A stretch of DNA of 64,000 bases, from NCBI RefSeq assembly GCF_003437035.1, contig NZ_QSRL01000003.1, positions 77,343 to 141,342 on the forward strand, in the 5' to 3' direction. Of this stretch, positions 18,944-57,454 are shown piece by piece (position 1 is the first letter of the stretch; the number at the start of each line of letters is the position of its first letter). A program made the translations under genes and the position numbers. A model generated the notes under the pieces. That model saw only the letters and a list, made by a program, of their open reading frames with translations. It ran no database searches and was not told where the DNA came from. The DNA is from Collinsella sp. TF08-11AT (lineage in GTDB: Bacteria > Actinomycetota > Coriobacteriia > Coriobacteriales > Coriobacteriaceae).

Positions 18944-19168
18944 TTCGCACGATATTACTTTGGACCGACCGAGTTTCCGCAGCTTGCTCGCCCCGGACCC
19001 CGCGCGCGGGGGCCATGAGATTTATCGCGAGTTCCGCACGAGCCGAAGAGCACTTAATGTGCTCTTCGTGCGAGCAGGACTGTAGAGCAGGAAATCTCAT
19101 GGGTCCGCGCGCGGGGTACGGGGCGAGCAAGCGGACAGAACAGACAACTGTCCAACAATTCGTGCGAA
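18944..19168. repeat. Nested ~225-nt palindrome with conserved core (family P1, copy A)
   Basis: Nested inverted repeats: TTCGCACGA/TCGTGCGAA outermost, TTGGAC/GTCCAA, then ~40-bp near-perfect GC-rich arms (18977-19018 and 19093-19134), then a core at 19026-19091. The core reads GAGTTCCGCACGAGCC, a hairpin GAAGAGCAC-TTAAT-GTGCTCTTC, GTGCGAGCAGGACTGT and AGAGCAGG. Cores nearly identical outside the hairpin lie at 57358-57426 (reverse) and 28863-28929. No coding capacity; no transposase nearby. Confidence 0.85.
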
Positions 19169-19220
19169 ACACAATGAAAAACCGTTTGATGTGAGTTAAT
19201 ATAAACAACGTCGTGAATCT

Positions 19221-19270
19221 GACTCCTGCCACATGCATGACAGGGGTTAAACACAAAAAAGGAGTCAATT
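19221..19270 (+). promoter_or_regulatory. Possible Shine-Dalgarno-sequestering leader of ptsH
   Basis: GACTCC at 19221-19226 is complementary to GGAGTC at 19261-19266, which contains the HPr ribosome site; a CCTG/CAGG hairpin lies between. A TATAAA at 19200-19205 is a candidate -10. Pairing would hide the ribosome site. Confidence 0.4.
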
Positions 19271-19534
19271 ATGGTTTCTGAGAAGGCTACCCTCGTTAAT
19301 CCTCAGGGTCTGCACATGCGTCCGGCTGGTCTGTTCGCCTCCACCATGGGCAAGTACGCCTGTGACGTGACGGTCGTCACCCCCGAGAAGGAGGTCAACG
19401 GCAAGTCCCCGATGGCCCTCATGGCTGCTGGTATCCCCTGCGGTACCGAGGTCGAGGTCAAGTGCGACGGCGCCGACGAGGCCGAGGCTCTGGCTGCTGC
19501 CATCGAGCTCATCAAGAGCGGTCTTGGCGAGTAG
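19271..19534 (+). CDS. ptsH: Phosphocarrier protein HPr
   Basis: 87 aa, full length. The phosphorylated His15 lies in NPQGLHMRPAG and the regulatory Ser46 in NGKSPMALMAAG. It carries phosphate from EI to FruA and perhaps other EIIs. Ser46 suggests that HPr kinase regulation is possible, but no hprK is seen in the window. It has its own leader and a following terminator. Confidence 0.96.
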   Translation: MVSEKATLVNPQGLHMRPAGLFASTMGKYACDVTVVTPEKEVNGKSPMALMAAGIPCGTEVEVKCDGADEAEALAAAIELIKSGLGE

Positions 19535-19577
19535 AACTCAAACGGGTCGCATGTTGAACAACTAAGTTCATATTTGG

Positions 19578-19615
19578 GGGCGCAGTGACCTGTTGTAAGG
19601 TAGCTGCGCTCTTTT
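19578..19615 (+). terminator. Intrinsic terminator between ptsH and ptsI
   Basis: GGCGCAG with CTGCGCT, an inner ACCT/AGGT stem, then CTTTT. It would uncouple HPr levels from EI. Confidence 0.65.
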
Positions 19616-19667
19616 GTCATGGATATGGCAAAACGCTTTATCACATGACACGGAGAGAGGAATGGGA

Positions 19668-21371
19668 ATGTATCAGGGAGTCAACGCTTCCGAGGGCATC
19701 GGTATCGGCACCGTCATGGTCGCCGTCGATCCCGACTTGACGTTTGAGCCGCACGAGGTTGCTGATTCGGCAGCAGAGAAGGAGCGCTATCAGTCCGCTC
19801 TTTCGGTCTTCTGCGAGAAGACCCAGGCTCAGGCCGACCACATGAAGGAGACGGTGGGCGAGGCCGAGGCCGAGATCATGAGCGGACACATTGTCCTGGC
19901 TCAGGACCCGGGCATGACCGACGCCATCAACGCCGCCATTGACGGCGGCACCTGCGCCGAGCAGGCGCTCATGGACACCTCGACCATGTTCGAGAACATG
20001 TTCCTGTCCATGGACGACGAGATGTTCCGTCTGCGCGCGGCCGACATCGCCGACATCCGCACCGGTATTCTGGCCGAGCTGCTGGGCAAGGAGGTCGTCG
20101 ACCTCTCCGTCCTGCCCGAGAATACCGTCGTTGTCGTGCACGACCTCACGCCGTCCATGACCGCCACGATCGATAAGGCCCACGTTGCCGGTATCGTCAC
20201 CGAGACCGGTGGCCGCACGTCGCACTCCGCGATCATTGCGCGCGCCCTCGAGATCCCGGCTGTCCTTTCGGTTTCCAACAGCTGCACCGCGTTGCGCAAC
20301 GGTATGACCGTTGTCGTCGACGGTGGCAAGGGTATCGTCGAGGCCGATCCCGACGAGGAGACGCTCGCTGCCTACACCGCCAAGGCCGAGGCCTTCGCTG
20401 CCGAGAAGGCAGCCCTCGAGGCCTTCCGTGGCAAGCCGTCCGTGACTGCCGATGGCATCAAGAAGATCATCGCCTGCAACATCGGTAGCCCCGATGACGT
20501 GCCCAACGCGCTCGATCACGACGCCGAGGCTATCGGTCTGTTCCGCTCCGAGTTCCTGTTCATGGACTCTGCTGAGCTTCCTTCCGAGGAGGAGCAGTTC
20601 AACGCCTATCGTAAGGTCGCCAGCGCGCTCAAGGGTGCTCCGGTCATCATCCGCACGCTCGATGTGGGCGGCGACAAGGAGATTCCGTATCTGCACATGG
20701 TCAAGGAAGAGAACCCCTTCATGGGCTTCCGCGCCGTGCGTTACTGCCTGGCCAATCCCGACCAGTACAAGGTTCAGCTCCGCGCCCTGCTGCGCGCCAG
20801 CGCCTTTGGTGACGTCAAGATCATGATCCCGCTCGTCACCTGCGTCGAGGAGGTCGTGGCCGTCAAGGAGCTCGTCGAGCAGTGCAAGGCCGAGCTGACC
20901 GAAGAGGGTCGCAAGTTCAACGAGAACATCGAGGTCGGCATTATGGTCGAGACGCCTGCCGCCTCGCTGCTCGCTGACCGTCTGGCCGAGGTCGCCGACT
21001 TCTTTTCTATCGGCACCAACGACCTCATCGGCTACACCATGTGCGCCGACCGTGGCAACGACACCATCTCCAACCTGTACCAGGTGTACTATCCCGCCGT
21101 GCTCCGCTCGCTCAAGAACATCATCGAGAGCGGCGTGAAGGCCGGTATCATGGTCGGCATGTGCGGCGAGGCCGCTGCCGATCCGCTGCTTGAGCCGCTG
21201 CTGATCAGCTGGGGCCTGGAGGAGTTCTCGATGAGCGCTCCGTCCATCCTGCGCGCCCGCAAGACCATCAGCCAGTGGACCAAGGCCGAGTGTGACGAGC
21301 TCGCCGAGAAGGCACTCGCCTGCAACACTGCCGCCGAGGTCAAGGCGCTGCTCGAGTCTGCTGCTCGCTAA
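19668..21371 (+). CDS. ptsI: Phosphoenolpyruvate-protein phosphotransferase (PTS enzyme I)
   Basis: 567 aa. Starts the PTS relay by autophosphorylation from PEP on His186 (GGRTSHSAIIA). The PEP-binding TIM barrel shows IRTLDVGGDKEIPYL, EFLFMD and IGTNDLIGY, with the catalytic Cys in GMCGEAAAD. ATG 19668 sits about 7 nt after GAGAGG; ATG 19662 is an alternative two codons upstream. All catalytic residues seen by motif are intact. Confidence 0.95.
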   Translation: MYQGVNASEGIGIGTVMVAVDPDLTFEPHEVADSAAEKERYQSALSVFCEKTQAQADHMKETVGEAEAEIMSGHIVLAQDPGMTDAINAAIDGGTCAEQALMDTSTMFENMFLSMDDEMFRLRAADIADIRTGILAELLGKEVVDLSVLPENTVVVVHDLTPSMTATIDKAHVAGIVTETGGRTSHSAIIARALEIPAVLSVSNSCTALRNGMTVVVDGGKGIVEADPDEETLAAYTAKAEAFAAEKAALEAFRGKPSVTADGIKKIIACNIGSPDDVPNALDHDAEAIGLFRSEFLFMDSAELPSEEEQFNAYRKVASALKGAPVIIRTLDVGGDKEIPYLHMVKEENPFMGFRAVRYCLANPDQYKVQLRALLRASAFGDVKIMIPLVTCVEEVVAVKELVEQCKAELTEEGRKFNENIEVGIMVETPAASLLADRLAEVADFFSIGTNDLIGYTMCADRGNDTISNLYQVYYPAVLRSLKNIIESGVKAGIMVGMCGEAAADPLLEPLLISWGLEEFSMSAPSILRARKTISQWTKAECDELAEKALACNTAAEVKALLESAAR

Positions 21372-21388
21372 TTTGGTATCAGAGGTAA

Positions 21389-21418
21389 CCGCGTGGTTGG
21401 AATGGGCCAATCACGCGG
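21389..21418 (+). other. Hairpin between ptsI and the first PfkB kinase gene
   Basis: CCGCGTGGTTGG pairs with CCAATCACGCGG around a 6-nt loop. No T-run follows, so it may be a processing or stabilising structure rather than a terminator. Confidence 0.5.
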
Positions 21419-21445
21419 CCCTCACATATACAGGGGGTACTGTAA

Positions 21446-22378
21446 ATGTTCTACACGCTAACCGCTAACCCGGCTGTCGACATGACGGTTTCGAGCTCTC
21501 CGCTCGAGCCCGATGAGAACGTCCGCACCGGCTCGGCCAGCTACACGGCTAACGGCAAGGGCCTCGACGTGTCCTTCGCCTTTAAGAAGATGGGCGTCGA
21601 CACCGTCGCGCTCGGCTTCTTCGCTGGCTTCACGGGCAAGTTTATCGTCGAGGAGGTCATGAACCTGGGTTGCCTGTGCCGCCCGGTCTGGACCGACGGC
21701 ATCACGCGTATCAACACCTACGTCAACGATGGCCAGCACGAGTACGGCATCCTCAACCCCGGTGCTCCTATTACGCCGCAGCACCAGGAGGAGCTCTACA
21801 ACATCCTGGACACCGCGGGCGATCTTGAGTGCCTGATCGTCTCTGGCTCCGTGCCTCCCAAAGCTACGCCCGACTTCCTGGCTCAGGTCATGGAGCACGC
21901 TCAGGCCCGTGGCGCCGATGTCGTCCTGGACCTGTCCTCCGACAAGCTCAAGGAGCTCGCTCACAAGAAGCCGCTGCTCATCAAGCCGAACCATCACGAG
22001 ATGAAGGCTATCTTCGGCGTGCCGGTCGACACCGACGACGAGGTCCGCGTTGCCATGAAGATGGCTCACGACGCGGGCGTTCAGAACGTGCTGCTCACCC
22101 GTGGTAGCCGTGGCGACGCCTACTTCTCCAACGGCGAGGACATTTGGTACGCCAAGCGTGAGTTCAACATCAAGCTGGTCTCTTCCGTCTGCGCCGGCGA
22201 CTGCACCCTCGCTGCGTTCCTGCACAAGTGGTACAGGGATCGCGACAACGTCGAGGAGGCCATGAAGCTCGCTATGGCCACCGGCGCCAACGTCGCTGAG
22301 TCCGTCGGCATCGGCGACTTCGGTCACGTTGACGAGTACAGCAAGCGCGTTGCTGTCCGCAAGCTCGATCGTCAGTAA
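21446..22378 (+). CDS. PfkB family 1-phosphofructokinase (first of a tandem pair)
   Basis: 310-aa ribokinase-fold kinase of the FruK/LacC branch: TLTANPAVDMTV at the start, NGKGLDVSFAFKKMG, SGSVPPK and LIKPNHHEM. The active-site motif is CAGDCTLAAF; the catalytic Asp is present, with Cys where GAGDS has Ser. In this context it most likely makes fructose 1,6-bisphosphate from fructose 1-phosphate made by FruA. Tagatose-6-phosphate kinase is the alternative. The next gene is a close paralogue of identical length. Confidence 0.85.
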   Translation: MFYTLTANPAVDMTVSSSPLEPDENVRTGSASYTANGKGLDVSFAFKKMGVDTVALGFFAGFTGKFIVEEVMNLGCLCRPVWTDGITRINTYVNDGQHEYGILNPGAPITPQHQEELYNILDTAGDLECLIVSGSVPPKATPDFLAQVMEHAQARGADVVLDLSSDKLKELAHKKPLLIKPNHHEMKAIFGVPVDTDDEVRVAMKMAHDAGVQNVLLTRGSRGDAYFSNGEDIWYAKREFNIKLVSSVCAGDCTLAAFLHKWYRDRDNVEEAMKLAMATGANVAESVGIGDFGHVDEYSKRVAVRKLDRQ

Positions 22379-22406
22379 TCGAAACGCGACATATTCGTGC
22401 GCATGC

Positions 22407-22437
22407 GGCGCCCCGGTTTCGGCTGGGGCGCCTTTTT
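22407..22437 (+). terminator. Intrinsic terminator after the first PfkB kinase gene
   Basis: GGCGCCCC with GGGGCGCC, 10-nt loop, TTTTT. Confidence 0.85.
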
Positions 22438-22566
22438 GTTCCGCCACGGGGGAGAGGAGTCCTTCCGTACTTCATCGCTTCCACACCGTTCACCGAGTTG
22501 TCCTAGCCTTTTACCGATGCGTGGAATATACTTTCATTAACACGTTGCCTTGTGAAAGGAACATTC

Positions 22567-23499
22567 ATGATTTACACGCTCACTGCAAATCCCGCCATTG
22601 ACTACAACATCACCTGCGACGGTCTTGCTGCCAACACCGTCACGCGTACCCGCAACGCCGTCTACACGCCCAACGGCAAGGGCCTCAACGTCTCGTTTAC
22701 GCTCGACCACTACGGCGTCGACACCACGATCCTGGGCTTTTTCGCCGGTTTCTCGGGCGAGTTTATCGTTAAGGGCGCCGAGGCCCTGGGCGTGCCCGTC
22801 AAGCCCGTGTGGACCGACGGCATCACGCGCGTCAATGTGTTCCTCAACGCCGGCCCCGACACCGAGTACAACATGGTCAACGCCGGTGCCGCCATCAACG
22901 AGGCCAACGAGCGGGAGATGTTTGAGCTCATCGATTCGCTCGATGACATGACCTGCCTGGTCATCAGCGGCTCGCTGCCTCCCAACACTTCCGAGGGCTT
23001 CCTGGCCGAGGTCCTGCGCCGCGTCAAGGCCAAGGGGGCCGAGTTCGTGCTCGATATCTCGAGCCATCAGCTGGCAGACCTCATTGCCATGGAGCCGCTG
23101 CTGATTAAGCCCAATGACGACGAGCTGCTCGATATCTTTGGCATTAAGGTAAGCGGCGGCGACGATGAGTCCGTCAAGGGTGCCATGGCCGAGCTGCACG
23201 CCAAGGGCGCTAAGAACGTGCTGCTGACGCTCGGCGGCGCCGGTGCGTACTTCTCCAACGGCGAGCACATCTGGTTTGCCAACCGTACTTTTGAGGTTAA
23301 GCTGCTGTCGACGGTGTGCGCCGGCGATTCTTCGCTGGCCGCCTTCCTGTCCGTGTGGCACGACGCCCCGGAGCGCGTCGAGGACGCCCTGCGTCTCTCG
23401 ATGGCCACCGGCGCTAACGTGGTCGAGTGCCCCGGTCTGGGCGATTTTGCCAAGGTCGATGAGTATCAGAAGGGTATTGCAATCCGTCAGGTTTGCTAG
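22567..23499 (+). CDS. PfkB family 1-phosphofructokinase (second of the tandem pair)
   Basis: 310 aa, same length and frame landmarks as the preceding kinase: TLTANPAIDYNIT, NGKGLNVSFTLDHYG, VWTDGITRVN, SGSLPPN, LIKPNDDEL and CAGDSSLAAF, which is closer to the canonical GAGDS. ATG 22567 follows AAAGGA. A TATACT (22527-22532) gives it its own candidate -10, and terminators flank it, so it can be expressed apart from the first copy. Substrate division between the two is not visible. Confidence 0.85.
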   Translation: MIYTLTANPAIDYNITCDGLAANTVTRTRNAVYTPNGKGLNVSFTLDHYGVDTTILGFFAGFSGEFIVKGAEALGVPVKPVWTDGITRVNVFLNAGPDTEYNMVNAGAAINEANEREMFELIDSLDDMTCLVISGSLPPNTSEGFLAEVLRRVKAKGAEFVLDISSHQLADLIAMEPLLIKPNDDELLDIFGIKVSGGDDESVKGAMAELHAKGAKNVLLTLGGAGAYFSNGEHIWFANRTFEVKLLSTVCAGDSSLAAFLSVWHDAPERVEDALRLSMATGANVVECPGLGDFAKVDEYQKGIAIRQVC

Positions 23500-23532
23500 T
23501 TCCGGCACCTTGCCTGAATAGTTCAATTATTT

Positions 23533-23566
23533 CGCATCCGTCTTAGACCAGGACGGATGCGTTTTT
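23533..23566 (+). terminator. Intrinsic terminator after the second PfkB kinase gene
   Basis: CGCATCCGTC with GACGGATGCG, 9-nt loop, TTTTT. Confidence 0.88.
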
Positions 23567-23663
23567 GTTTATCGGACTTGCGTGTGCAGTGGAGGCTGTT
23601 TCTTGCTAGACTTCTTGCAGACGCAATCGATAGCCAATTTGATAGTCGCAGGAGGCCATAGGC

Positions 23664-25058
23664 ATGTGCAATGTTTCGCTCAACGGTACGCAGCCGACCG
23701 ATGCCTCTATCCGTGTCCTGCGTGCGCTTGAGGCAGCAGGTCTTGAGGCTTGGTACGTGGGTGGTTGGGTACGTGATGCGCTGATGGGATGCCCCAGCCA
23801 CGATGTCGACATGTGCTGCAGCGGCCTGTGGCTGGAGTCCAAGGCGGCACTCGAGGCCGCCGGCATTGCGGTAGTTGAGTCGGGCATTAAATTTGGCGGC
23901 ATTACGGCTATTTGCGATGGCGAGCGCATTGAGGTCACCACCTATCGCCTGGACGGCTTCTATACCGACGGTCGTCATCCTCAGAGTGTGGAGCGCGCCG
24001 CTTCGCTTGAGGACGATCTGGCGCGCCGCGACTTTACCGTCAATGCCATGGCGTGGCATCCCGAGCGCGGCCTTGTCGACCGCTACGATGGCCAGGGCGA
24101 CCTAGACCGCAAGCTGATTCGTGCCGTCGGAGATCCCAAGCGCCGCTTTAACGAGGATGCCCTGCGCATGTTGCGTGCGGTGCGTTTTGCCTGCCGCCTG
24201 GACTTTGTGATTGAGCCCGAGACCAAGTGTGCCCTTGCCGAGTGCGCGCCGCTGCTCGATGCCGTGGCGCGCGAGCGCGTGGGTATTGAGCTCGAGGGCA
24301 TTCTATCGACCGGCCACGGGGGAGACGCGATGCTGCGCTACCCCGAGCTCATCTGCGCCGCCGTGCCCGAGCTTGCGCCGGCTCGTGGGTTTGACCAGCG
24401 CAGTGTCTATCATGCGTTTAACGTCTACGAACATATCGCCCGCGTGCTGACGGTGGCAGGGGAGCTGGCGCTGTGCGATGGCGTGGCGCCTTCGCCGAGC
24501 TTAATGTGGGCAGCGTTTTTGCATGACGTCTCCAAGCCCGATTGCTTTACGGTCGATCACGCCGGCAGCGGCCACTTCTACGGTCATCCCGAGCTCGGCG
24601 CCAAGAAGGCGCGCGTCATTATGGATCGCCTGGCGCTCTCGCACGATTTGGTGCGCGATGTGTGCCTGCTCATCAAATACCATGACAAGCCGCTGCGCCC
24701 CGAGCGCTCCTGCCTGCTCAATATGATGCGCGCGCTTTCGGGCGAGGGCGTCGACACGCCGCGTCTGATGGACGAGCTCATGGATCTTAAGCGTGCTGAC
24801 ACACTTGGTAAGGCCCCGTCGTGCTTCTATTACGTCGAGACGATTGAGGAGATGCGCGCGATGGCGCACGAGCTGCTGAAGGCGGGGGAGCCCTATACGC
24901 TCAAGATGCTCGCCATTAACGGCGGCGACCTGATCCGCGCCGGTGTGAAGCCGGGGCCCGAGCTAGGCCAGCTACTCAACTCCGCCCTCGACGCCGTGAT
25001 CGAAGACAACATTTCCAACGAGCGCGAAGCTCTTTTGGTCCATCTCAACTTGAATTAG
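23664..25058 (+). CDS. cca: CCA tRNA nucleotidyltransferase
   Basis: 464 aa. The class II nucleotidyltransferase head has WYVGGWVRDALMG and the two catalytic Asp in HDVDM, then RRDFTVNAMAWHP and the DALRMLRAVRFACRL RNA-binding core. A C-terminal HD domain (VYHAFNVYEHIARV; AAFLHDVSKPD) is intact. It adds or repairs the 3' CCA of tRNAs. The tRNA-Glu genes just downstream already encode CCA, so repair may be its main job for them. The ribosome site is GCAGGAGG. Confidence 0.93.
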   Translation: MCNVSLNGTQPTDASIRVLRALEAAGLEAWYVGGWVRDALMGCPSHDVDMCCSGLWLESKAALEAAGIAVVESGIKFGGITAICDGERIEVTTYRLDGFYTDGRHPQSVERAASLEDDLARRDFTVNAMAWHPERGLVDRYDGQGDLDRKLIRAVGDPKRRFNEDALRMLRAVRFACRLDFVIEPETKCALAECAPLLDAVARERVGIELEGILSTGHGGDAMLRYPELICAAVPELAPARGFDQRSVYHAFNVYEHIARVLTVAGELALCDGVAPSPSLMWAAFLHDVSKPDCFTVDHAGSGHFYGHPELGAKKARVIMDRLALSHDLVRDVCLLIKYHDKPLRPERSCLLNMMRALSGEGVDTPRLMDELMDLKRADTLGKAPSCFYYVETIEEMRAMAHELLKAGEPYTLKMLAINGGDLIRAGVKPGPELGQLLNSALDAVIEDNISNEREALLVHLNLN

Positions 25059-25123
25059 CTACCCAGTTTACCTGCGCGTTCCATAACCTGCCGACAATTT
25101 TTTCGGCAATTTGGAATTTCTTC

Positions 25124-25152
25124 TTGCGCTGATGTTTTTTGTCCCGTAATAT
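25124..25152 (+). promoter_or_regulatory. tRNA-Glu promoter
   Basis: TTGCGC (25124-25129), 17-nt spacer, TAATAT (25147-25152). Transcription would start near 25159 in a GC-rich discriminator, as in stringently controlled stable RNA promoters. Confidence 0.6.
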
Positions 25153-25186
25153 ATGTCCTCGCAGCACGGCAGTGCAGATGTCATGT

Positions 25187-25263
25187 GGCCCGTTCGTCTA
25201 GCGGTTTAGGACGCCGCCCTCTCAAGGCGGAGATCACCAGTTCGAATCTGGTACGGGCTACCA
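25187..25263 (+). tRNA. tRNA-Glu (anticodon CTC), copy 1
   Basis: Acceptor arms GGCCCGT/ACGGGCT, anticodon stem CCGCC/GGCGG with loop CTCTCAA (anticodon CTC), and T-loop TTCGAAT. The discriminator A and CCA are encoded. It decodes GAG. Confidence 0.95.
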
Positions 25264-25285
25264 CTTCTTTTCTGCTGAGGTCTAT

Positions 25286-25362
25286 GGCCCGTTCGTCTAG
25301 CGGTTTAGGACGCCGCCCTCTCAAGGCGGAGATCACCAGTTCGAATCTGGTACGGGCTACCA
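25286..25362 (+). tRNA. tRNA-Glu (anticodon CTC), copy 2
   Basis: Identical in all 77 nt to the copy 99 nt upstream, separated by a 22-nt spacer and without its own promoter. A tandem duplication transcribed together. Confidence 0.95.
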
Positions 25363-25372
25363 CGCATCTGAT

Positions 25373-25404
25373 ACCCGGTCTTCCCATGGAAGGCCTGGTT
25401 TTTT
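25373..25404 (+). terminator. Intrinsic terminator after the tRNA-Glu pair
   Basis: ACCCGGTCTTCC with GGAAGGCCTGGT (one mismatch, one G-T pair), then TTTTTT. Confidence 0.8.
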
Positions 25405-25512
25405 ATTTTCAAACAACCGTCTGCAATTCCCGTTTGAACCAGAGCTTTGCGTTCTGCCTATGGCCCTTACGGGTACAATAACCAAGATATTTTGGCTGTT
25501 AGAAGGAGTCTC

Positions 25513-27548: not shown

Positions 27549-27551
27549 GCC

Positions 27552-27659: not shown

Positions 27660-28976
27660 TTATCCTTCCCACTCCAATTGGGAATCCTCCGATGCGCCTT
27701 CGCACGCTTGCATGACCTCGATACCATGCGATCGTGCGAACTCGACGAGCTCTGCGTTGCGGGCGTTTATGGTGCCGAAGGCGACGGGGCACACGATAAG
27801 GCGCGCGCAGTGGACGAGGAGCTCTTTGGCGCGGGCTATGGTTTTATCCCCGATCGGCTCGAAGGCGCGCTCGACCACGCATTCCGCCGCCAAGTCGCGC
27901 GCGAGCTCGGAGTCGATGTCCCCTTCGTGCAGAACGCCCGCGTAGAACGCCTTGCCCTGCCGGATGAGCTGGCGAAACACAGCCGACCCCGTACCTGCGC
28001 CGGCGATGACGAACGTGTGCGCATCGCCGTGCGGGTGTCCAATTTCCACGCTGCCGAAGCGCTCGTTGAAGGTGCCATGCTGAAGGCCGTAGAGCTCGCC
28101 AATCGTCTCGCGCGTGAATATGTCCTCGGGTACGCCGGCGCGGAAGACCCGGCCGTCCTTCACGCAAATCACCTTGTCGGCGCTTTTCTGCGCGAGCTCG
28201 AGTTCGTGGATGGACATGATGACAGCCACATTCCGCGATTTCGCAAGGTGGCGAAGTATTCGCAGCAGGTCGATCTGGTAGCGGATATCGAGATACGACG
28301 TGGGCTCGTCGAGCACGAGCACACGCGGATCCTGCGCGATGGCGCGTGCGAGCATGACGCGCTGGCGTTGCCCGTCGCTTATCTGCATGAAGTCGCGCTC
28401 GGCGAGCTCTTCCACATGTGCGGTTTTCATGGCCTCGCCGACCCGACTATGGTCGTCGGGCGAGAGTGTGCCCATTCGTCCGGTGTAGGGATGCCTTCCC
28501 GCCTCTACGATATCGCGGCAGGTGAGGAGCTCGGTCCGGGGGCGATTTGTCAGCATAACGGCAAGGTTCCTTGCGAACTCCGCCGTCTTCCATCGGGAAA
28601 TCTCCCGCCCGTCGAGCTCGACCGCGCCGGCAAGCGGTGCCAGATGGCGTGTGATGGTTTTCAAGATGGTCGACTTGCCCGAGCCGTTCGGCCCGATGAG
28701 TGCCACGACGTCGCCCGCGCGAACCTCCAGATCGACGCCTTCTACTACGACCTTCTTGTCGTAGCCCGCCGACAGGTCGCTTATGCGGAAAAGCGGCGCT
28801 CCGTCAGCCTGCGTTTCGACCGGAGTTTCGAGGTTCGGCTCCGCTCGGAGGAGGCGTTCCGCGCGCAGTTCCGCACGAGCCGAAAGTGCCTTCTGGCGCT
28901 TTCGTGCGAGCTCAGGACTGTCTAAGCATAGAATGTCGCCTCCGAGCGTTTTGGGCCGCGGCACGAATTCCCCCAT
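27660..28976 (-). CDS. ABC transporter ATP-binding protein with N- and C-terminal extensions (siderophore/cobalamin type)
   Basis: 438 aa, against about 260 for a FepC/BtuD ATPase. The core (about 61-295) has Walker A GPNGSGKS (95-102), a variant signature ISDGQRQRVMLARA, Walker B VLVLDEPTSYLD and the H-loop MSIHELE. Residues 10-45 are encoded by a copy of the P1 palindromic repeat. Residues from about 300 form an extra Rossmann-like-looking domain (DAHTFVIAGAGTGSAVFRQL) of unknown role. ATG 28976 directly follows the permease stop, and no other plausible start lies between the repeat and the core, so the repeat is translated. Confidence 0.85.
   Translation of the reverse strand: MGEFVPRPKTLGGDILCLDSPELARKRQKALSARAELRAERLLRAEPNLETPVETQADGAPLFRISDLSAGYDKKVVVEGVDLEVRAGDVVALIGPNGSGKSTILKTITRHLAPLAGAVELDGREISRWKTAEFARNLAVMLTNRPRTELLTCRDIVEAGRHPYTGRMGTLSPDDHSRVGEAMKTAHVEELAERDFMQISDGQRQRVMLARAIAQDPRVLVLDEPTSYLDIRYQIDLLRILRHLAKSRNVAVIMSIHELELAQKSADKVICVKDGRVFRAGVPEDIFTRETIGELYGLQHGTFNERFGSVEIGHPHGDAHTFVIAGAGTGSAVFRQLIRQGKAFYAGVLHEGDIDSELARDLAAECVVERAFEPIGDKTIARAKELLVHCARLIVCPVAFGTINARNAELVEFARSHGIEVMQACEGASEDSQLEWEG
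28842..28948. repeat. P1 palindromic repeat inside the ATPase gene (copy C)
   Basis: Outer arms CGCTCGGAGG (28842-28851) and CCTCCGAGCG (28939-28948) enclose the P1 core (28863-28929): AGTTCCGCACGAGCC, hairpin GAAAGTGCC-TTCT-GGCGCTTTC, GTGCGAGCTCAGGACTGT. The hairpin differs from copies A and B in sequence, but pairing is kept by matching changes. It reads through in frame on the reverse strand without a stop. Confidence 0.85.
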
Positions 28977-50072: not shown

Positions 50073-50079
50073 GCGCTTG

Positions 50080-50199
50080 CCGCGCCTGCGCGCCCTCCCG
50101 CCCGCGAGGAGGAGCGCCCCGAGCAAGCTCGACCCGTACAAGCCCGTCATCCATCAATAGCTCGAGGACGACGCCCAGAACTGGCGCAAACAGCCCTTC
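50080..50199 (+). pseudogene. IS21-type transposase remnant at the right edge of the cobalamin island
   Basis: After cbiJ, one + strand frame reads RRRSAPSKLDPYKPVIHQ, a stop (TAG at 50158-50160), then LEDDAQNWRKQPFNKL. SKLDPYKP followed by an acidic helix is the linker region just after the HTH in IS21 IstA transposases. No start and no remainder are present. This is a short remnant; the call is by motif memory only. Confidence 0.45.
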
Positions 50200-50273
50200 A
50201 ATAAGTTGCGGTGAAATAGTGTCTGTTTTTGCTGCTAGATAGCATATTCTGTCCCTAATTCACCGCAACTTGT
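50200..50273. repeat. Palindromic element, AAGTTRCGGTGAAAT family, copy 2
   Basis: Arms AAGTTGCGGTGAAATAG and TAATTCACCGCAACTT, then GTCTG and CTGTCCC nearer the centre, around an AT-rich centre. Same family as 18795-18889. It separates the cobalamin island from the 3' end of the MacB-like permease gene. Confidence 0.7.
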
Positions 50274-50283
50274 TGGTGGTGGC

Positions 50284-51498
50284 TTACTGGTAGCGTAGGC
50301 ACTCCACCGGGTTGAGCTTTGCCGCGCGGCGAGCGGGGTAGAAGCCAAAGATTACGCCGATGCCGACGGAGACGGCGAAGGCCAGCAGTACCGTGGCGAT
50401 TGAAAAGCTCGGTGTGATTTGCCCGCTGGCGCCGAGCTCACTGAGAACCCCTGATCCTGCGGCAAACATCGCGAGGCCCCAGGCCAGCAGATAGCCAATC
50501 AGGACACCCAGCAGGCCACCGGTGACGCACAGTGCCGAGGATTCGGCCAAAAACTGAGAGGTGATATCACGTCGGCTTGCACCAAGCGCGCGGCGAATAC
50601 CGATCTCGCGGATGCGCTCAGTCACGTTGGTGAGCATCATATTCATAATGCCGATTCCGCCGACAAGCAGTGAGATACTGGCGACAGCGCCCATGATGAG
50701 CGAGAAGGCGCCCATAAACGAGTTGAGTGCATCGATGGCGCTTTTCATGGAGGTCGCCGATACGCTGTCGTACTCATCATCCTCCGAGATGCCCTTCATC
50801 GCTCGCACCTTAGACTCGATGGTCTTGCAGAGCTCGTCCATGTCTGTGCCCTCGGCGGCAAGTGCCGTCACGCTGGGGAATGAAGGATTCTCGTCGCCAA
50901 ACAGGCCGGAGATGGTTTCGCGTGGCATATACAGCGTGAGCGAGCCCATGGAGTCGCTGCCGCCATCAATCACGCCTACAATCTGCACCTCGCCGTTGGA
51001 CACCTTGATGGTTTTCCCCAGCGCATCCTGTTCGTTGCCGTAAAGCTGATCGGCGCCGCCGCGGCTGATGAGCGCCACGCGCGAGCCTGATTGAGACTCT
51101 GCCTGTGAATAGACACGTCCTGCAACGAGCTTGCTGGCACCCACGGCGTCGAGCATGTCGCTGTCGACACCCTGTGCCATGACGGTATAGCTTTTATCGC
51201 CAGACTTGTACTCGGTATACGCGCTGTCGACAATCCCGATCTGCTCTATCTGCGGCACCAGTTTTTGAAGCTTCTGGACGTCAGAATCAGTGAGTTCTTG
51301 GGACGAATAGATCTGCACCATGCGGGCTGCATTGAGCCCCAAGCTGTTGACCAGGCTGTTTTGTATGCCGCCGATGAGCGAAGTCATGGCGATGACCGAT
51401 GCGATGCCGATGACAATGCCCAGGATGGTGAGCAGGCTGCGCCCCTTGTTGGCCTCGAGCGAGTGAAGGGCTTCTTGGACAAGATCGCGGGTGCTCAT
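50284..51498 (-). CDS. MacB-like FtsX-domain ABC transporter permease
   Basis: 404 aa. First membrane helix near residues 20-40 (ILGIVIGIASVIAMTSLI), a MacB periplasmic-core domain (about 50-250), then three helices near 270-390 with GGIGIMNMMLTNVTERIREI and IGIRRALGASRRDITSQFL, the FtsX signature. With the following ATPase and adaptor genes it forms a tripartite-type exporter of peptides, lipoproteins or drugs. ATG overlaps the ATPase stop by 4 nt. Confidence 0.92.
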   Translation of the reverse strand: MSTRDLVQEALHSLEANKGRSLLTILGIVIGIASVIAMTSLIGGIQNSLVNSLGLNAARMVQIYSSQELTDSDVQKLQKLVPQIEQIGIVDSAYTEYKSGDKSYTVMAQGVDSDMLDAVGASKLVAGRVYSQAESQSGSRVALISRGGADQLYGNEQDALGKTIKVSNGEVQIVGVIDGGSDSMGSLTLYMPRETISGLFGDENPSFPSVTALAAEGTDMDELCKTIESKVRAMKGISEDDEYDSVSATSMKSAIDALNSFMGAFSLIMGAVASISLLVGGIGIMNMMLTNVTERIREIGIRRALGASRRDITSQFLAESSALCVTGGLLGVLIGYLLAWGLAMFAAGSGVLSELGASGQITPSFSIATVLLAFAVSVGIGVIFGFYPARRAAKLNPVECLRYQ

Positions 51499-52268
51499 GC
51501 CTTCGCTCCTTTCGGCTGATTGGTGGTTGCAGAAATCGCGGGCAGGTTTTTGACGGCCCCGCGTAACGTATTCGGTGTATGCGCGACATATGCGCCGTCA
51601 TGGATTCGCCCGTCACGGATGGTCACGGCTCGATCGGCCTCGGCGGCGATGCCGGGGTCATGCGTGATGAGTACGATGGTCTTGCCGCGTTTCTGGAGCT
51701 TGTGGAAGGTTTCCATGACGAGTGCCCCGGTTGTCGAGTCTAGATTTCCCGTTGGCTCGTCGGCCAAAATGATGGGCGGATCGTTGACGAGGGCGCGTGC
51801 GATGGCGACACGCTGCATCTGGCCGCCCGAGAGCTCGGATATGCGGTGGTCCCAATGGTCGACGGGCAGCGTGACGGCCTGCAGCGCGTGCACGGCGCGC
51901 ATTTCGCGCTGGCTACGGGGTACGTTGGTGTAGGCCAGCGGCAGCATGACGTTTTCGATAACCGACAGGCGCGGCAGCAGGTTGAAGCTCTGAAAGACAA
52001 AGCCAATGCTCAGGGCGCGAACTTCGGTGAGCTCGTCATCGTCAAGCTCGGCCACGTTGAGCCCTTGCAGGTAGTAGTCGCCCGCCGTCGGCTTATCCAG
52101 GCAGCCTAGGATGTTCATGAGCGTCGACTTGCCCGAGCCCGAGGGGCCGGTAATGGCGACGAACTCGCCGGGATCTACCGCTAGGCTCACGTTGTGCAAG
52201 ATGTGGGCGCAACCCGCTTCGCTCTCAAAAATGCGGTGCACGTTGCGGATGTCGATGACGGGACGCAT
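51495..52268 (-). CDS. ABC transporter ATP-binding protein, MacB/LolD type
   Basis: 257 aa. Walker A ITGPSGSGKSTLMNILG, signature LSGGQMQRVAIARAL, Walker B PPIILADEPTGNLDS and H-loop VLITHDPGIA. The LolD/MacB-type X-loop context RLSVIENVMLPL is present. All motifs intact. It shares 1 nt with the adaptor stop and 4 nt with the permease start. Confidence 0.94.
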   Translation of the reverse strand: MRPVIDIRNVHRIFESEAGCAHILHNVSLAVDPGEFVAITGPSGSGKSTLMNILGCLDKPTAGDYYLQGLNVAELDDDELTEVRALSIGFVFQSFNLLPRLSVIENVMLPLAYTNVPRSQREMRAVHALQAVTLPVDHWDHRISELSGGQMQRVAIARALVNDPPIILADEPTGNLDSTTGALVMETFHKLQKRGKTIVLITHDPGIAAEADRAVTIRDGRIHDGAYVAHTPNTLRGAVKNLPAISATTNQPKGAKA

Positions 52269-53695
52269 TACATACCCTCGTCGGCAGACATACTGTCCGA
52301 ATCCGCGCTGTAGCCGCCGTCAGCCGTTGCGCCCGCTCCGGTGTCCATGACGAGGGTGTCACCGTCGCGCAGTTTGGTTGTGGGCACGCCAGGATTGATT
52401 TCGTTGCCCTGGTCGTCGCGCTTGACCTGCGTCTTACCGACTACAGCCTCGTTGTCGTTTTGCGTCACGACGGTCACCTTCACGCGGCGCGTCTTCTTGC
52501 CTTCCGAATCGGTGGCCAGATTGACGTAATAGTGCTCGCCATCTTCGGTCATCAGCGCCATGGTCGGCACCATAACCACGTCGTCGAGCTTCTCGGTCAC
52601 TACCGAGACCTCGGCAGTCATACCCGGCTTAAGGCGACTGTCGGGTGCTTCGATGAGGATGTCGACGTTAAAGGTCACGCTGCCGCCGCTACCGGAGCCG
52701 GAGTCAGAGTTTGCCACCGAGGCGATAGCCGTGACGGTGCCCTGGCTCACGATATCGGGAAACGCGGGATAGGTCACGTTGGCGCTTTGGCCCACGGCAA
52801 TTTTGGCGATATCCTTTTCGCCCACCTGAACCGTCACCTTCATCTTGGACAGGTCGGCGATTTGCATGCACTGCTTGCCGCCGCTCGTGTCGCCTTCGCC
52901 CATGATCGTGCCTCCGGTCACCGTGGCACCGACTTTGGCGTTGAGCTCGACGATGTTGCCCGAACTGGGGGCCTTTACGGTGCGCTCGGCCGCCTTTGCA
53001 GTTGCCTGCTCCAGCGTTGCCTGGGCCGAGGCGAGGTTGCGCTGGGCGGTCGAGACGGCATTTGCGTTGGCGTTTGCGTCCGATGGGCCGGTCGATCCGT
53101 CACTGTCCGTTGTCGGTGCGGCCTGTGCGGCCGCGAGTGCCACCTTTGCATTGTTCAGGTCTTCCTGGGCGGCCGCGACCGCGCGCTGCGCCTCGGAAAC
53201 AGCGCTATCGAGCGCGTCGTTCTTAATGGTCATGAGTACGTCGCCCTCGTTGACGCTCTGTCCGGCCTGCACGTTGATCTTTTCAACCGTACCGTCGACA
53301 GAAGGGGAGACGACCGATGCCGAGATGGGCTTAAGCTGCCCCTTGGCTTCGACTGTGGTGGTAAACGTGCCTTCGGTGACCATGTCGGTCACCGGTCCGT
53401 TGGTGCCTGCGGGTTGCGCGTTGATGACCAGCGTTGCGATGATGGCAATGAGCGCGATGGCAACAACGACACCGACGGCGATACCGCATCGGATGAGCTT
53501 TTTGCGCCGACGCTCGGCACGCTTTGCCTTGAGCTTTGCATAGGCTTCTTCATCGGAGATATCGGTCGAATCGTCGAGACTCGTTTGGGGCTGCTTGGTG
53601 TCTGCAGCGCTGATAATCGGCAGGGTCTCGGTGGCATCTTGGGGCATGCGATCGGAATCGTCAGGACCCGGATTGATCGTGGGGACCTTGGACAT
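52268..53695 (-). CDS. HlyD/MacA-like membrane fusion protein
   Basis: 475 aa. Cytoplasmic acidic-then-basic N-terminus, one helix near residues 69-92, then lipoyl half (GTVEKINVQAGQSVNEGDVL), an Ala-rich coiled-coil hairpin (about 160-240), second lipoyl half (VKAPSSGNIVELNAKVGATV) and beta-barrel domain. It is the adaptor partner of the MacB-like pair. AAAGGAG precedes ATG 53695. The C-terminal ~20 residues are Ser/Asp-rich. Confidence 0.9.
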   Translation of the reverse strand: MSKVPTINPGPDDSDRMPQDATETLPIISAADTKQPQTSLDDSTDISDEEAYAKLKAKRAERRRKKLIRCGIAVGVVVAIALIAIIATLVINAQPAGTNGPVTDMVTEGTFTTTVEAKGQLKPISASVVSPSVDGTVEKINVQAGQSVNEGDVLMTIKNDALDSAVSEAQRAVAAAQEDLNNAKVALAAAQAAPTTDSDGSTGPSDANANANAVSTAQRNLASAQATLEQATAKAAERTVKAPSSGNIVELNAKVGATVTGGTIMGEGDTSGGKQCMQIADLSKMKVTVQVGEKDIAKIAVGQSANVTYPAFPDIVSQGTVTAIASVANSDSGSGSGGSVTFNVDILIEAPDSRLKPGMTAEVSVVTEKLDDVVMVPTMALMTEDGEHYYVNLATDSEGKKTRRVKVTVVTQNDNEAVVGKTQVKRDDQGNEINPGVPTTKLRDGDTLVMDTGAGATADGGYSADSDSMSADEGM

Positions 53696-53725
53696 AGCGT
53701 CTCCTTTATCGATATGGCTCCGATA

Positions 53726-53759
53726 AGTATATACGCCCGTCGCGATAGGCGGGCGTATA
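53726..53759 (-). promoter_or_regulatory. Palindrome and -10 element before the MacA-like gene
   Basis: TATACGCCCG (53730-53739) and CGGGCGTATA (53750-53759) form a perfect 10-bp inverted repeat, and the reverse-strand TATACT (53731-53726) overlaps one arm. A regulator binding the palindrome would block the promoter. Alternatively the palindrome is a weak terminator for the transpeptidase gene, but no T-run follows. Confidence 0.4.
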
Positions 53760-53827
53760 GAAGTTGCGGATGACGGTACTGTAAGTTTTGTCGCCGTGCT
53801 GTTTACTTGTTGTAGACGTTAGCTGCG

Positions 53828-55552
53828 TTACGAGTGCACGACCACGCAGAGGCCGACTTTGATGCGCTCGTGGAGCGACTTGGCATCGGCCAGACGCAGG
53901 TTGATACAACCGTGGCTACCGCACCACTTGTACGATTCGGCGTTATCGAAACTCGAATCGTTTTGCCAGGTGGCGTCGTGGAATCCGACCATATTGCCCT
54001 CGAACGGCATCCAGTAGCTTACCGGGCTCTCGTATTTGGGCTTGCCGGTCTCGGGGTCCTTGGCACCGATGAGTTTGCTGGCGCCATCGTTGCTGTTGAT
54101 CTGCCATACGCCCTCGGGGGTGGCGTCTTCACCCGGTTTGCCAGAAATAAAGTTGGCCTCCCACACGATGTTGCCGCTCTCGTCGTAGTAGCGCGCATGC
54201 TGCTCGGACAGGTCGACGTCGATATAGGCCTTCCAGTCGGGCTCGCCCTTGGCGGTAAATGTGTCGGCCTTCTGGGAGTACTTGATCTCGATTTCGCCGG
54301 TCTGCTTGTTGTTAATGGCGTCCTCGACTTGCTTGGCGAGCGAGCTGCTGTCGATGGACCAACCAAAGTCGCCGCCTTCGACGGCGCACTGCTTGCCATC
54401 GGCGCGCGTCCACCAGCGAGTGGAGCCCACGGTATTAAAGCCGTTGGCGAGCTCGGCTGCCCAGCTGCTGATCTGCGACGTATCGAGCGTGGGGTTGGCC
54501 GGATCGGCAAAGCTGATCCACTGCAACACGGAGCTGCCATCAACCTTGCCGGCATCCTCGCCGTTGAGCTTGAGGGTCACGTTGACGCCCAAGAAGTTGT
54601 TGGCGGCATCGCATGCAGACTGAATCTGATCATCGGTCAGCGTTCCATTGAGCGGCTCATAGGCATCGTTGCCGAGCTTGGAAAGATCTACGGTCTCGGC
54701 CAGCGAGGCAAGCTCGAGCTCGGCATACTTAATGACATGCTCGCGGTTGAGTTTTTCGTTGGAGCGCGCCTTCTCGACGGTAAACTTGCCGGCCTGCTCG
54801 TCATAGGAGCTATTGGCCTCGAACGCGCCCGAACGCCCCTCGTTAAACTCGTCGACGGCGGCGCCCAGATCCTTCTCAAACTGCTTTTGGTCAAAGGTGT
54901 CGGAGAGCATGGACAGGTCGACGTCTTGATCAAGATCGACTTCGTTGGAGCTAGCGGTTGTTTTGGTCTTGCCGCTTAAGGATTCTACAAGGCGAACCGG
55001 CCATACAATGGCTTCGTTGCGGCTGATAATCTCTTTTGCGGCAGCTTCGCCGTCGACAATGGGCTCATCGGACTCGGGCTGATAGGTCCAGCTAAAGTCA
55101 TCGCCTGTCACGGTGAGCTTATAGTGCTTCCACGCCGAGTTGACCTTGGTGGCGGCAGACGATGCGTTTGAGAACGAGACGTCGACGCCGGCGATGGTGG
55201 TGTTGGGGTAGGCTACCTGCGAAAATGCTACGGCGCCTACGATATAGACAATGACGATAAGACCCAGGAGGACAAAGAGCGTCGTCTTTTTGCCCGACTT
55301 ATTGTTCCCGGTGGGTTTGCGCGCGGGGCCGCGATCGCCTCGACCGTGCGTGGGGGGCTGCTTGGGCGTATTGCCGTTTGCCTGGCGCTGCTGACGTTGC
55401 TGGCGCTGCTGGTTCGGGCGTTGCGAAGCGTTTGCCGCACCACGCTGCTGACCGTGGCTCGGCGCGATAGGACGCGGCGACTGAACGCCGCCGGTGTGCC
55501 TGCTCGGCTGCTGCGGATCGGGAATCAGTTGAGTTCGATCGTTTTGCGACAT
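53828..55552 (-). CDS. L,D-transpeptidase (YkuD) with PG-binding repeats
   Basis: 574 aa. A Gln/Arg/Pro-rich cytoplasmic tail of ~90 residues, one helix near 95-117, two PG-binding-4 (YkuD-associated) regions, and the YkuD domain at the C terminus with active site SHGCINLRLADAKSLHE and upstream HDATW. It makes 3-3 crosslinks or attaches proteins to peptidoglycan outside the membrane. ATG 55552 gives the better ribosome-site spacing; ATG 55561 is three codons upstream. The single-domain layout resembles ErfK proteins of Actinobacteria. Confidence 0.9.
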   Translation of the reverse strand: MSQNDRTQLIPDPQQPSRHTGGVQSPRPIAPSHGQQRGAANASQRPNQQRQQRQQRQANGNTPKQPPTHGRGDRGPARKPTGNNKSGKKTTLFVLLGLIVIVYIVGAVAFSQVAYPNTTIAGVDVSFSNASSAATKVNSAWKHYKLTVTGDDFSWTYQPESDEPIVDGEAAAKEIISRNEAIVWPVRLVESLSGKTKTTASSNEVDLDQDVDLSMLSDTFDQKQFEKDLGAAVDEFNEGRSGAFEANSSYDEQAGKFTVEKARSNEKLNREHVIKYAELELASLAETVDLSKLGNDAYEPLNGTLTDDQIQSACDAANNFLGVNVTLKLNGEDAGKVDGSSVLQWISFADPANPTLDTSQISSWAAELANGFNTVGSTRWWTRADGKQCAVEGGDFGWSIDSSSLAKQVEDAINNKQTGEIEIKYSQKADTFTAKGEPDWKAYIDVDLSEQHARYYDESGNIVWEANFISGKPGEDATPEGVWQINSNDGASKLIGAKDPETGKPKYESPVSYWMPFEGNMVGFHDATWQNDSSFDNAESYKWCGSHGCINLRLADAKSLHERIKVGLCVVVHS

Positions 55553-55655
55553 CGTATGCATATCCTTCGGATTTCGCCTTGCGGCTCATCGTGTTTTTAC
55601 TGGGCTTGCATTATAGCGATTACCTAGTTGATTGTGGTATGGAAACGGTGGCATT

Positions 55656-55683
55656 CAAAAGAGGTGGGACATTTGTCCCACCT
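55656..55683 (-). terminator. Intrinsic terminator after sdaA (GGGACA palindrome)
   Basis: On the reverse strand AGGTGGGAC and GTCCCACCT pair around AAAT, followed by CTTTT. Its arms resemble the GGGACAAA palindrome at 60802-60902. Confidence 0.75.
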
Positions 55684-55701
55684 TCGAGTCGTTCTTTGTC
55701 G

Positions 55702-57309
55702 CTATCCGCACACACCGCATTTTGCACAGGCCGAAAGTGCGGCCGGAGCCTGCGCGATGCCGCCCTTTGCCGTCTCGCGCAGCGTGGCCGGCAACGCGTG
55801 GCCCACCGAGAGCACGACGTGCGCCATCTGGTCAAACGGCACCAGGCTCTTAATGCCGGCGAGGGCAAGCTGTGCGGAGCTAAAGGCGGCTGCCACACCG
55901 ATGGCGTTGCGGTTTTGGCAGGGCACCTCCACGAGGCCACCGACGGGGTCACAAACGAGGCCCAGCAGATTACTCAGCGCGATGGAACTGGCATCGAGCG
56001 CCTGCTCGGGTGTGCCGCCGAGCATCTGCACCAGCGCGGCGGCAGCCATGGCGGCCGCACTTCCTACCTCAGCCTGACAGCCGCCCTCGGCGCCGGCAAC
56101 GCAGGCGCTCGTGGTGAGGTTGAGGCCGATGGCGGCGGCGCAGTAGAGCGCGTCCATCACCTGCTCGTCGTCGAGCTGCAGGTGGTCGGCGAGTGCCAGC
56201 ACACAGCCGGGGACGACGCCTGCGGATCCTGCCGTCGGAGCTGCGACGATCACGCCCATGGTGGCGGAGCGCTCGAGTACGGCCATGGCGCGGGCCACGG
56301 CGTCGGTCTGGACGGCGCCCATCAGGCTTATGCTCAGATCGTTTCGGCTGGTGGCATCGACAAGCTTTGCCTCGCCGCCGATGAGGCCGCCGAGCGAGCG
56401 CTGTGGATTGGAAATGGGGGCTGTGCTCTCTTCGCGCATGACGTCGAGTACGCGGCGCATGGCGGCGATAGCGTGTGCCTCGCCGGTCAGACGTGCCTCG
56501 CGCACGGCCATGACGGCGCCGATGTTGAGCCCCAGTTCTTCGCACGCATCGAGCAGCTGCTCGCCGTCGTCGAAGATTTCCTTTGCTGAGACGCCGGGAG
56601 AGAGCGACGAGGCAGAACCGGGGAGCTCGATAAAGGTCGCGTAATCGACATTGTCGAGCTTGCGCAGCATAGGGACGACGGTGTCGTCGGGCGCGCCGTC
56701 GGTCTCGAAGACGGAGTAGGCCTGGCCGCCCACTTCGGTGCGGTAGGTGCGGCAGAAGGCGATGTTCACGTGTGCGTAGGCGAGCAGGTTCGTGAGCGCG
56801 GCGAGCACGCCGGGGACGTCGTAGTGCGCCACGAAGAGTGTGGAGTACATGCCCGAGATGTCGACGCCGACGCCGTTAATGCGGCTGATGCGCATCTTGC
56901 CGCCGCCCAGGCTCTCACCGCGGACCTGGGCCGTGGCGCCCGTGTCGTCGACCATGTCGATGTCGACGGTGTTGGGGTGGATGGAGGCGTCGTCGCCCTT
57001 GATGTCAAAGTGATATTCGAGGCCCTGCTCGTGCGCGAGGTCGAAGGCCTGCTTGATGTTCTCGTCATCGGTGTCGAGGCCCAGGATGCCCGCGACGAGC
57101 GCACGATCGGTGCCGTGGCCGCGGTAGGTGTGGGCAAAGGAGTTCCACAGGCCAAAGGTGACCTTAGTGATGCGGCCTTCCAGCAGGCTGGCGGCAACTT
57201 GGGCGCAGCGCAGGGCGCCGGCGGTGTGCGAAGAACTGGGGCCGACCATGACGGGGCCCAAGATCTCGAATGCCGAGGTCGTAGCTAGTGTTTGCGGCTT
57301 GCCTGCCAT
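55702..57309 (-). CDS. sdaA: L-serine ammonia-lyase, single-chain iron-sulfur type
   Basis: 535 aa. Order beta domain (GPVMVGPSSSHTAGALR), ACT-like region (VPGVLAALTNLLAYAHVNIA), alpha domain. The [4Fe-4S] cysteines are in SACVAGAEGGCQAEVG and LVCDPVGGLVEVPCQNRN. Converts serine to pyruvate and ammonia. The last eight residues add CAKCGVCG, three extra cysteines. The protein is oxygen-sensitive by family, in line with an anaerobe. A P1 palindrome lies just upstream of its start. Confidence 0.93.
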   Translation of the reverse strand: MAGKPQTLATTSAFEILGPVMVGPSSSHTAGALRCAQVAASLLEGRITKVTFGLWNSFAHTYRGHGTDRALVAGILGLDTDDENIKQAFDLAHEQGLEYHFDIKGDDASIHPNTVDIDMVDDTGATAQVRGESLGGGKMRISRINGVGVDISGMYSTLFVAHYDVPGVLAALTNLLAYAHVNIAFCRTYRTEVGGQAYSVFETDGAPDDTVVPMLRKLDNVDYATFIELPGSASSLSPGVSAKEIFDDGEQLLDACEELGLNIGAVMAVREARLTGEAHAIAAMRRVLDVMREESTAPISNPQRSLGGLIGGEAKLVDATSRNDLSISLMGAVQTDAVARAMAVLERSATMGVIVAAPTAGSAGVVPGCVLALADHLQLDDEQVMDALYCAAAIGLNLTTSACVAGAEGGCQAEVGSAAAMAAAALVQMLGGTPEQALDASSIALSNLLGLVCDPVGGLVEVPCQNRNAIGVAAAFSSAQLALAGIKSLVPFDQMAHVVLSVGHALPATLRETAKGGIAQAPAALSACAKCGVCG

Positions 57310-57333
57310 GGGTGCTCCTGTTCTATCCCGTCG

Positions 57334-57454
57334 TTCCGAGGGCTTTGGTATTTGGTCGCCTGCTCTACAGTCCTGGCTCGCACGGAGGCCACATTAAGTG
57401 GCCTCCGGCTCGTGCGGAACTCGCGACCGACCAAATACCAAAGCCCTCAGAACT
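57334..57454. repeat. Nested palindrome between sdaA and metK (family P1, copy B)
   Basis: Outer arms GAGGGCTTTGGTATTTGGTCG (57339-57359) and its complement (57429-57449), unrelated to the outer arms of the other copies. The core (57358-57426) is in reverse orientation: read on the reverse strand, GAGTTCCGCACGAGCC, hairpin GGAGGCCAC-TTAAT-GTGGCCTCC, GTGCGAGCCAGGACTGT, AGAGCAGG. Apart from the hairpin and one inserted base it matches the core at 19026-19091. The remaining intergenic sequence to 57550 shows nothing else. Confidence 0.88.

Follow-up and report, generated by a model that had tools for sequence, protein, structure and literature searches.

Short palindromic DNA elements of the Coriobacteriia, with outer arms that are probably derived from host DNA and repaired by template switching

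Miniature inverted-repeat transposable elements (MITEs) are defined by terminal inverted repeats that are common to the copies, and target duplications usually accompany them. Both traits are also given in PMC10969869 and PMC3116915, the former of which presents the Rickettsia palindromic elements (RPEs) as short mobile palindromes that lie in frame in unrelated protein genes and also occupy intergenic positions. Repetitive extragenic palindromes (REPs) and REPINs are, according to PMC3116915 and PMC8266576, small palindromes that are mostly extragenic and often arranged as inverted doublets. Template switching between the arms of an inverted repeat results in homogenised arms and inverted spacers (PMC8604942), and it can both create and repair perfect stems (PMC8794818). 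The 64,000-nucleotide stretch of Collinsella sp. TF08-11AT analysed here (contig NZ_QSRL01000003.1, positions 77,343 to 141,342; the whole stretch is referred to as the window) contains three copies of a nested palindrome. They belong to a dispersed family of short, mobile palindromes in the Coriobacteriia, in which the outer arms probably come from host DNA and are mended by template switching.

In their behaviour these elements are akin to RPEs and REPs, and what sets them apart is that the outer arms are apparently host-derived and maintained by template switching. Like RPEs, they occur in frame inside protein genes (copy 2 of the window measures exactly 96 nt) as well as intergenically, but the host phylum is another one, several frames are used, and the outer arms differ per locus, those of copy 2 being partly an inverted copy of the flank. 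Like REPs and REPINs, they are small palindromes, mostly extragenic and in some cases present as inverted pairs, but their core of ~60 nt has two conserved loop strands, and a link to Y1 genes was not found. GTAG was seen by eye in part of the alignment only, and a constant GTAG or CGTC foot was not noticed. With MITEs they share being non-coding, short, multi-copy inverted repeats, whereas their ends vary between loci and adjacent duplications were not found. Finally, arm homogenisation, spacer inversion and reverse-complement copies are shared with template-switched quasi-palindromes (PMC8604942 and PMC8794818), with the difference that template switching elsewhere acts on any inverted repeat, while here it would shape most of the sequence of a dispersed family outside its core. 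A description of the family was not found in the open-licence literature searched (subscription papers fell outside the search), and the text of PMC3733652 makes no mention of four Coriobacteriia genera or of 'Actinobacteria'.

The original prediction, made from the letters of the window, had described three copies with a common split core, inner stems that differ but remain paired, and outer arms that differ completely between copies, all of which is borne out by pattern search and folding. An exact GTTCCGCACGAGCC is present at 19031 (+), 28868 (+) and 57407 (-), with no other mismatch-free occurrence within the window, and there are three matches to the split pattern GTTCCGCACGAGCC-N(15-30)-GTGCGAGC, versus 0 in 100 shuffles. 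From outside to inside, each copy is built of a long locus-specific stem, an asymmetric loop, one strand of which is close to GCGAGTTCCGCA and the opposite one to AGGACTGTnnGAGC, and an inner stem of 9-12 bp with a short loop, which in copy 2 is GAAAGTGCC/GGCGCTTTC and includes one G.T pair. The outer arms (~55, ~27 and ~27 nt in copies 1, 2 and 3) are paired within a copy and unlike between copies, and the copies have folding z-scores of -11.2, -4.4 and -10.7, respectively (200 shuffles each). Covariance model R1 detects all three copies with E-values of 1e-19 to 1e-23; it was built from 105 elements, picked for diversity out of 175 non-identical ones, of which 114 are left after merging near-identical elements. 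Core types A, B and C are distinguished by the letters flanking the inner stem. The features of the three copies, of which two are intergenic and one lies within a gene, as had been predicted, are as follows.

18982..19132, + strand: the entire hairpin of copy 1, from its outer arms through the conserved loops to the inner stem; model R1 match at 19001-19113, E 5.9e-21; intergenic, between a phosphotransferase system EIIABC-type gene (EIIA, IIB and EIIC domains) and an HPr-domain gene
19031..19075, + strand: core of copy 1, type A, inner stem GAAGAGCAC/GTGCTCTTC
28843..28938, + strand: copy 2, exact 96-nt insertion (32 codons); model R1 match at 28837-28951, E 1.3e-19; in the N-terminal part of an ATP-binding cassette (ABC) transporter ATPase gene
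28843..28851, + strand: outermost left arm of copy 2, GCTCGGAGG, which repeats the pre-existing right flank in inverted form
28939..28947, + strand: host right flank, CCTCCGAGC, also present in the empty allele, acting as outer right arm of copy 2
27660..28976, - strand: host open reading frame (ORF) of copy 2, ABC ATPase adjoining a FecCD permease, open across the insertion
57338..57450, - strand: copy 3 hairpin; model R1 E 1.2e-23; intergenic, between metK and an L-serine ammonia-lyase gene, its end ~25-28 nt before the start codon
57376..57420, - strand: core of copy 3, type A, inner stem GGAGGCCAC/GTGGCCTCC

That the element is mobile, as had been proposed, is evident from an exact empty site at copy 2, where exactly 96 nt are present in 12 relatives and missing from four others, the matched stretches being 96-98% identical (the strict motif recovers copy 2 in 9 of 23 loci; the 12 filled ones were counted by eye). 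In the empty allele GACTCC is followed directly by CCTCCGAGCG, and in the filled allele GCTCGGAGG and the core are inserted between these halves. Since GCTCGGAGG is absent from the empty allele, the left outer arm must be new, and it equals the inverted right flank; as a control, such a 9-mer pair at that spacing is found at only 21 of 474,858 positions of element-holding loci. In four more distant relatives (G018, G024, G044 and G045) the flanking matches are 111-141 nt apart, compared with 262-286 nt in the window, and this short spacing suggests that the ancestral state was probably the empty one. With the insertion the host ORF becomes 32 codons longer, and its frame remains open. A record titled Ellagibacter (L089) contains the same copy 2 locus, with fully paired arms of 18 bp, which would be there by transfer or as a stray contig.

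Further copies in this and related genomes had also been anticipated, and they are abundant. The nearest genome contains nine copies of the type-A pattern, and model R1 matches 161 of 296 Coriobacteriia genomes at E<=1e-4, whereby no more than 12 candidates were scored per genome, so that copy numbers are lower bounds. The type-A pattern is found in 39 of the 65 genomes of the bacterial family, a few of them by chance (a reversed control pattern gives 0-3 matches per strand and genome). Among the genomes listed, matches with E<1e-15 are confined to families f1, f3 and f5, all belonging to one order in the scheme used, and weaker matches outside these may be ordinary hairpins. Titles of copy-bearing records among the matches listed include Collinsella, Gordonibacter, Adlercreutzia, Slackia, Paraeggerthella, Ellagibacter, Olsenella and Tractidigestivibacter; the NCBI taxonomy places Collinsella and Olsenella in the Coriobacteriales and Gordonibacter in the Eggerthellales, all within the class Coriobacteriia. 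Types A and B interchange at one and the same locus, both upstream of thrB (11 A and 14 B in 30 loci) and of leuS (9 A and 13 B in 30 loci).

The mechanism that would best account for these observations is one in which only the hairpin core is transmitted, i.e. the conserved strands of the loop (..GCGAGTTCCGCA../..AGGACTGTnnGAGC..), an inner stem-loop that can be exchanged, and inner arms of ~8-12 bp (judged by eye from alignments), whereas the outer arms would be host DNA. At or after insertion, a polymerase template switch at the inverted repeat would copy one flank, as its reverse complement, to the other side and thereby lengthen the palindrome, and later template switches would mend arm mismatches and occasionally invert the core. 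Because mismatches are mended in this way, both sides would change together. Insertions would survive mainly where they fall shortly after a stop codon, shortly ahead of a start codon, or within a protein whose frame they keep. We infer template switching as the agent, and growth of the arms from the flanks in general; some factor may nevertheless recognise the conserved letters of the core.

The central stem was tested for covariation, as the original prediction had suggested, and covaries strongly. In 105 aligned elements, 99.5% of the pairs in the core stems are standard, compared with 81.4% after shuffling and at most 48.2% when the strands are slid, and 276 cells are changed on both sides versus 78 in the shuffled set, the gain in further pair types being less marked (24 versus 21.2, reached by 12 of 500 shuffles). 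These elements were selected by pattern, which in itself makes the patterned letters invariant. In the outer arms, 55 G.T and 47 A.C mismatches occur in 2246 pairs from 107 elements (p=0.49; score filters left 107 of the 114 merged elements for this count and 108 for the flank-motif analysis). For a comparison of orthologues, 239 elements were regrouped, and the 25 loci used each had two or more usable orthologous elements; comparisons with more than eight changed pairs were skipped. At these loci 68 double Watson-Crick changes were counted (37 transversions and 31 transitions), next to 70 single changes (26 G.T, 24 A.C and 20 other) and eight others. The core of the copy-1 locus has opposite orientations in two species (L347 versus L348), one of the 13 recognised cores there being reversed, and at locus L047 one species (L274) has the middle of both arms symmetrically replaced; failed or reversed flank anchors kept 11 of 19 copy-1 loci and 16 of 21 L047 loci out of the extraction.

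The covariation is therefore real, yet it does not look like the result of RNA selection, since A.C is about as frequent as G.T, transversions are about as frequent as transitions, and one core is inverted. A selected RNA is expected to tolerate G.U pairs and to evolve via them, which the arms do not do, and RNA selection is thus unsupported. Similar numbers of A.C and G.T mismatches, double changes by transversion and an inverted core are signs of template switching, of which the transversion double changes, the inverted core (one site) and the reverse-complement flank copy (one site) are all present. The original prediction had held that the structure itself is selected, as a mobile palindrome recognised as a hairpin or as an RNA. 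Of this, the mobile part stands, given the exact empty site, whereas the selection of pairing as an RNA or as a Y1 hairpin is not supported, in view of the strand-symmetric Watson-Crick changes in the arms, which proceed without a G.U route, the inverted core at one locus, the presence of copies in both orientations and inside coding frames, and the lack of association with Y1 genes.

With respect to genes, 94 of the 114 elements were classed as intergenic, 14 lie in gene calls (made by a simple codon-usage script rather than a published gene finder) and six are without a gene on one side. Both orientations are represented. Gaps between divergent genes hold only two of the 94 intergenic copies, versus 86 of 540 intergenic stretches of at least 60 nt (loci L079 and up). 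Where the 3' side faces a convergent gene, 43 of 51 copies are 38-73 nt from the stop codon (core to codon), and where it faces a start codon, 19 of 43 lie no farther than 75 nt away; the 5' side seldom comes so near (0 of 33 and 7 of 61, respectively). The frames of the 14 copies within gene calls are open by construction, and 12 of these 14 places, translated for 60 residues on each side, are free of stops. The NCBIfam models identify, among the copy-containing proteins, three HisH (above the curated cut-off), an RNase R/II-like protein and helicase-like proteins.

Several observations weigh against host-derived, template-switched arms on a mobile core. Such arms do not account for the asymmetric placement, with the 3' side near a gene end and the 5' side not. 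The conservation of core letters across the class and the constant orientation at thrB and leuS could mean that the element has a function, and the excess of G.U over A.C in the inner stem (9 versus 2 in 945 cells, with 98.2% Watson-Crick pairs) leans slightly towards RNA. No helper gene for movement was identified, and an adjacent target duplication was not found either: repeats of 3-4 nt are present in 4 of 108 loci, with a mean length of 0.12 versus 0.09 expected, and the longest word shared by the flanks (4.17 versus 4.01 nt, sd 0.07) is slightly, i.e. about two standard deviations, above chance. A fixed flank motif was likewise not found by expectation-maximisation; the best words are A/T-rich and at scattered positions, their scores exceeding those of shuffles that keep base composition only (e.g. 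71.4 versus 20-24). The inverted flank copy is seen at only one exact empty site. At the second polymorphic locus (L063; one filled and seven core-less alleles in the 8 of 14 loci extracted), the alleles with and without the core are both hairpins with the outermost stem in common. Because these outer arms are shared, L063 does not tell which side was copied, nor whether a flank was copied at all or the core entered a hairpin that already existed; moreover, ~85 extra nt are present on the 5' side of the filled allele. Three other species have a reversed short variant at L063, two of which are recognised by the motif.

An unlikely alternative is that the element is a class-wide structured RNA, i.e. 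a cis-regulatory or mRNA-stabilising hairpin of untranslated regions whose stems are kept by selection for RNA pairing. The very strong covariation, the asymmetric conserved loops and the lean towards G.U in the inner stem would fit such a role, as would the copies located shortly before the start codons of thrB, cysS, leuS and L-serine ammonia-lyase and, by reading of the sequences, of leuD, serA, ilvC and valS. Upstream of leuS, the copy follows a promoter-like TTTGCTAGAAT (by reading) and precedes the start codon, and where the motif is present the orientation is constant, in 25 of 30 thrB loci and 22 of 30 leuS loci. However, the arms show no preference for G.U (55 versus 47 in the arms overall and 26 versus 24 in the orthologues), copies are also found after convergent genes and in coding sequence, and the core is inverted at one locus. 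The copy is furthermore missing in some species at thrB (L224, L229) and leuS (L253, L254, L259), and no Rfam match was obtained: at the curated gathering threshold the window gives only two tRNAs and five 8-kb loci give none, while a relaxed search with copy 3 yields matches far below the gathering scores. Amino-acid genes are apparently enriched next to copies, and a regulon of such genes was considered and set aside, the adjoining genes being, by reading, housekeeping genes of many kinds.

It is equally unlikely that the core inserts into the loops of existing hairpins such as terminators, in which case the outer arms would be old host stems instead of copies. The core-less relatives at L063, whose short hairpin has the same stem as the outermost arms in the filled allele, and the position of 43 of 51 copies just beyond the stop codon of a convergent gene speak for it. 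The empty allele of copy 2, however, has no left arm, and T-runs beside the arms are absent in the loci inspected by eye. For the same reason, that the arms are without flanking T-runs in those loci, the reading of the elements as intrinsic terminators was rejected. Perfectly paired arms of 25-60 bp also seem long for terminators.

Very improbable is recognition of the hairpin by a Y1 (REP/RAYT-like) or other single-strand transposase, with pairing kept since only hairpins move: hairpin DNA, the absence of an adjacent target duplication and the presence of Y1 domains in 128 of the 296 genomes are compatible with it, but the check for such a transposase proposed in the original prediction turned out negative, as five of 30 copy-rich genomes (G019, G021, G074, G125 and G178, with 8 to at least 12 copies each) have no PF01797 match at E<=1e-5 and no copy lies in the 99,768 bases around 30 Y1 genes (a weak result, ~1 being expected by density), and the locus-specific outer arms would be left unexplained.

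Returning to host-derived arms repaired by template switching, the inverted flank copy could be made by the insertion itself, if a single-stranded core were to fold and its end were to prime copying of the target flank, which is conceivable although doubtful. If so, each insertion would build a locus-specific palindrome, in a mode distinct from cut-and-paste, Y1 and retro-type insertion, that may be coupled to the gene ends of translation and amino-acid genes. More generally, the family provides a natural, class-wide series of palindromes in which textbook compensatory changes apparently stem from template switching and not from RNA selection, which calls for caution in RNA discovery based on covariation. 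A strand-symmetry test (G.T versus A.C, transition versus transversion) can separate the two. For the Coriobacteriia, which are common gut bacteria, it means a family of in-frame mobile elements that extend proteins such as HisH.

Various other matches and arrangements were encountered along with the family. A match in a viral contig (L199) was a chance match without arms, as were those in L080 (a proteobacterial metagenome-assembled genome), L031 and L033, and a phage search with copy 3 alone gave no match. In 400 kb of one complete genome the model indicates four strong and three weaker places, of which one is a short variant and two represent a related family with the core ATTCCGCAG..CGAGGACG and its own locus-specific arms. 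This second hairpin family, with the strands ATTCCGCAG and CGAGGACG, is present at L374 (13855-13929, -), L379 (10361-10430, +) and 15 other loci, and both inner stems and outer arms differ between L374 and L379. Copies in head-to-head pairs, ~100-280 nt apart, occur at L008, L011, L021, L039, L046, L052, L069, L070 and L167, some of them between convergent genes with their 3' sides outward. At L067 (G007) the arms are mismatched, the 5' side being like one locus and the 3' side like another element when compared by eye with L002 and L027, which would fit recombination of two copies through the core. The outer arm on the 5' side is G-rich (G exceeds C in 86 elements, C exceeds G in 14), to be set against a palindrome that has no intrinsic strand. 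Within the window, a further long hairpin is located at 18807-18877, ~100 nt upstream of copy 1, with 23 paired bases and one mismatch (AAGTTACGGTGAAATGGGGACTG / CAGTCCCTATTTCACCGCAACTT; DNA-fold z-score -5.4), and two adjacent tRNA-Glu (CTC) genes with equal model scores lie at 25187-25362.

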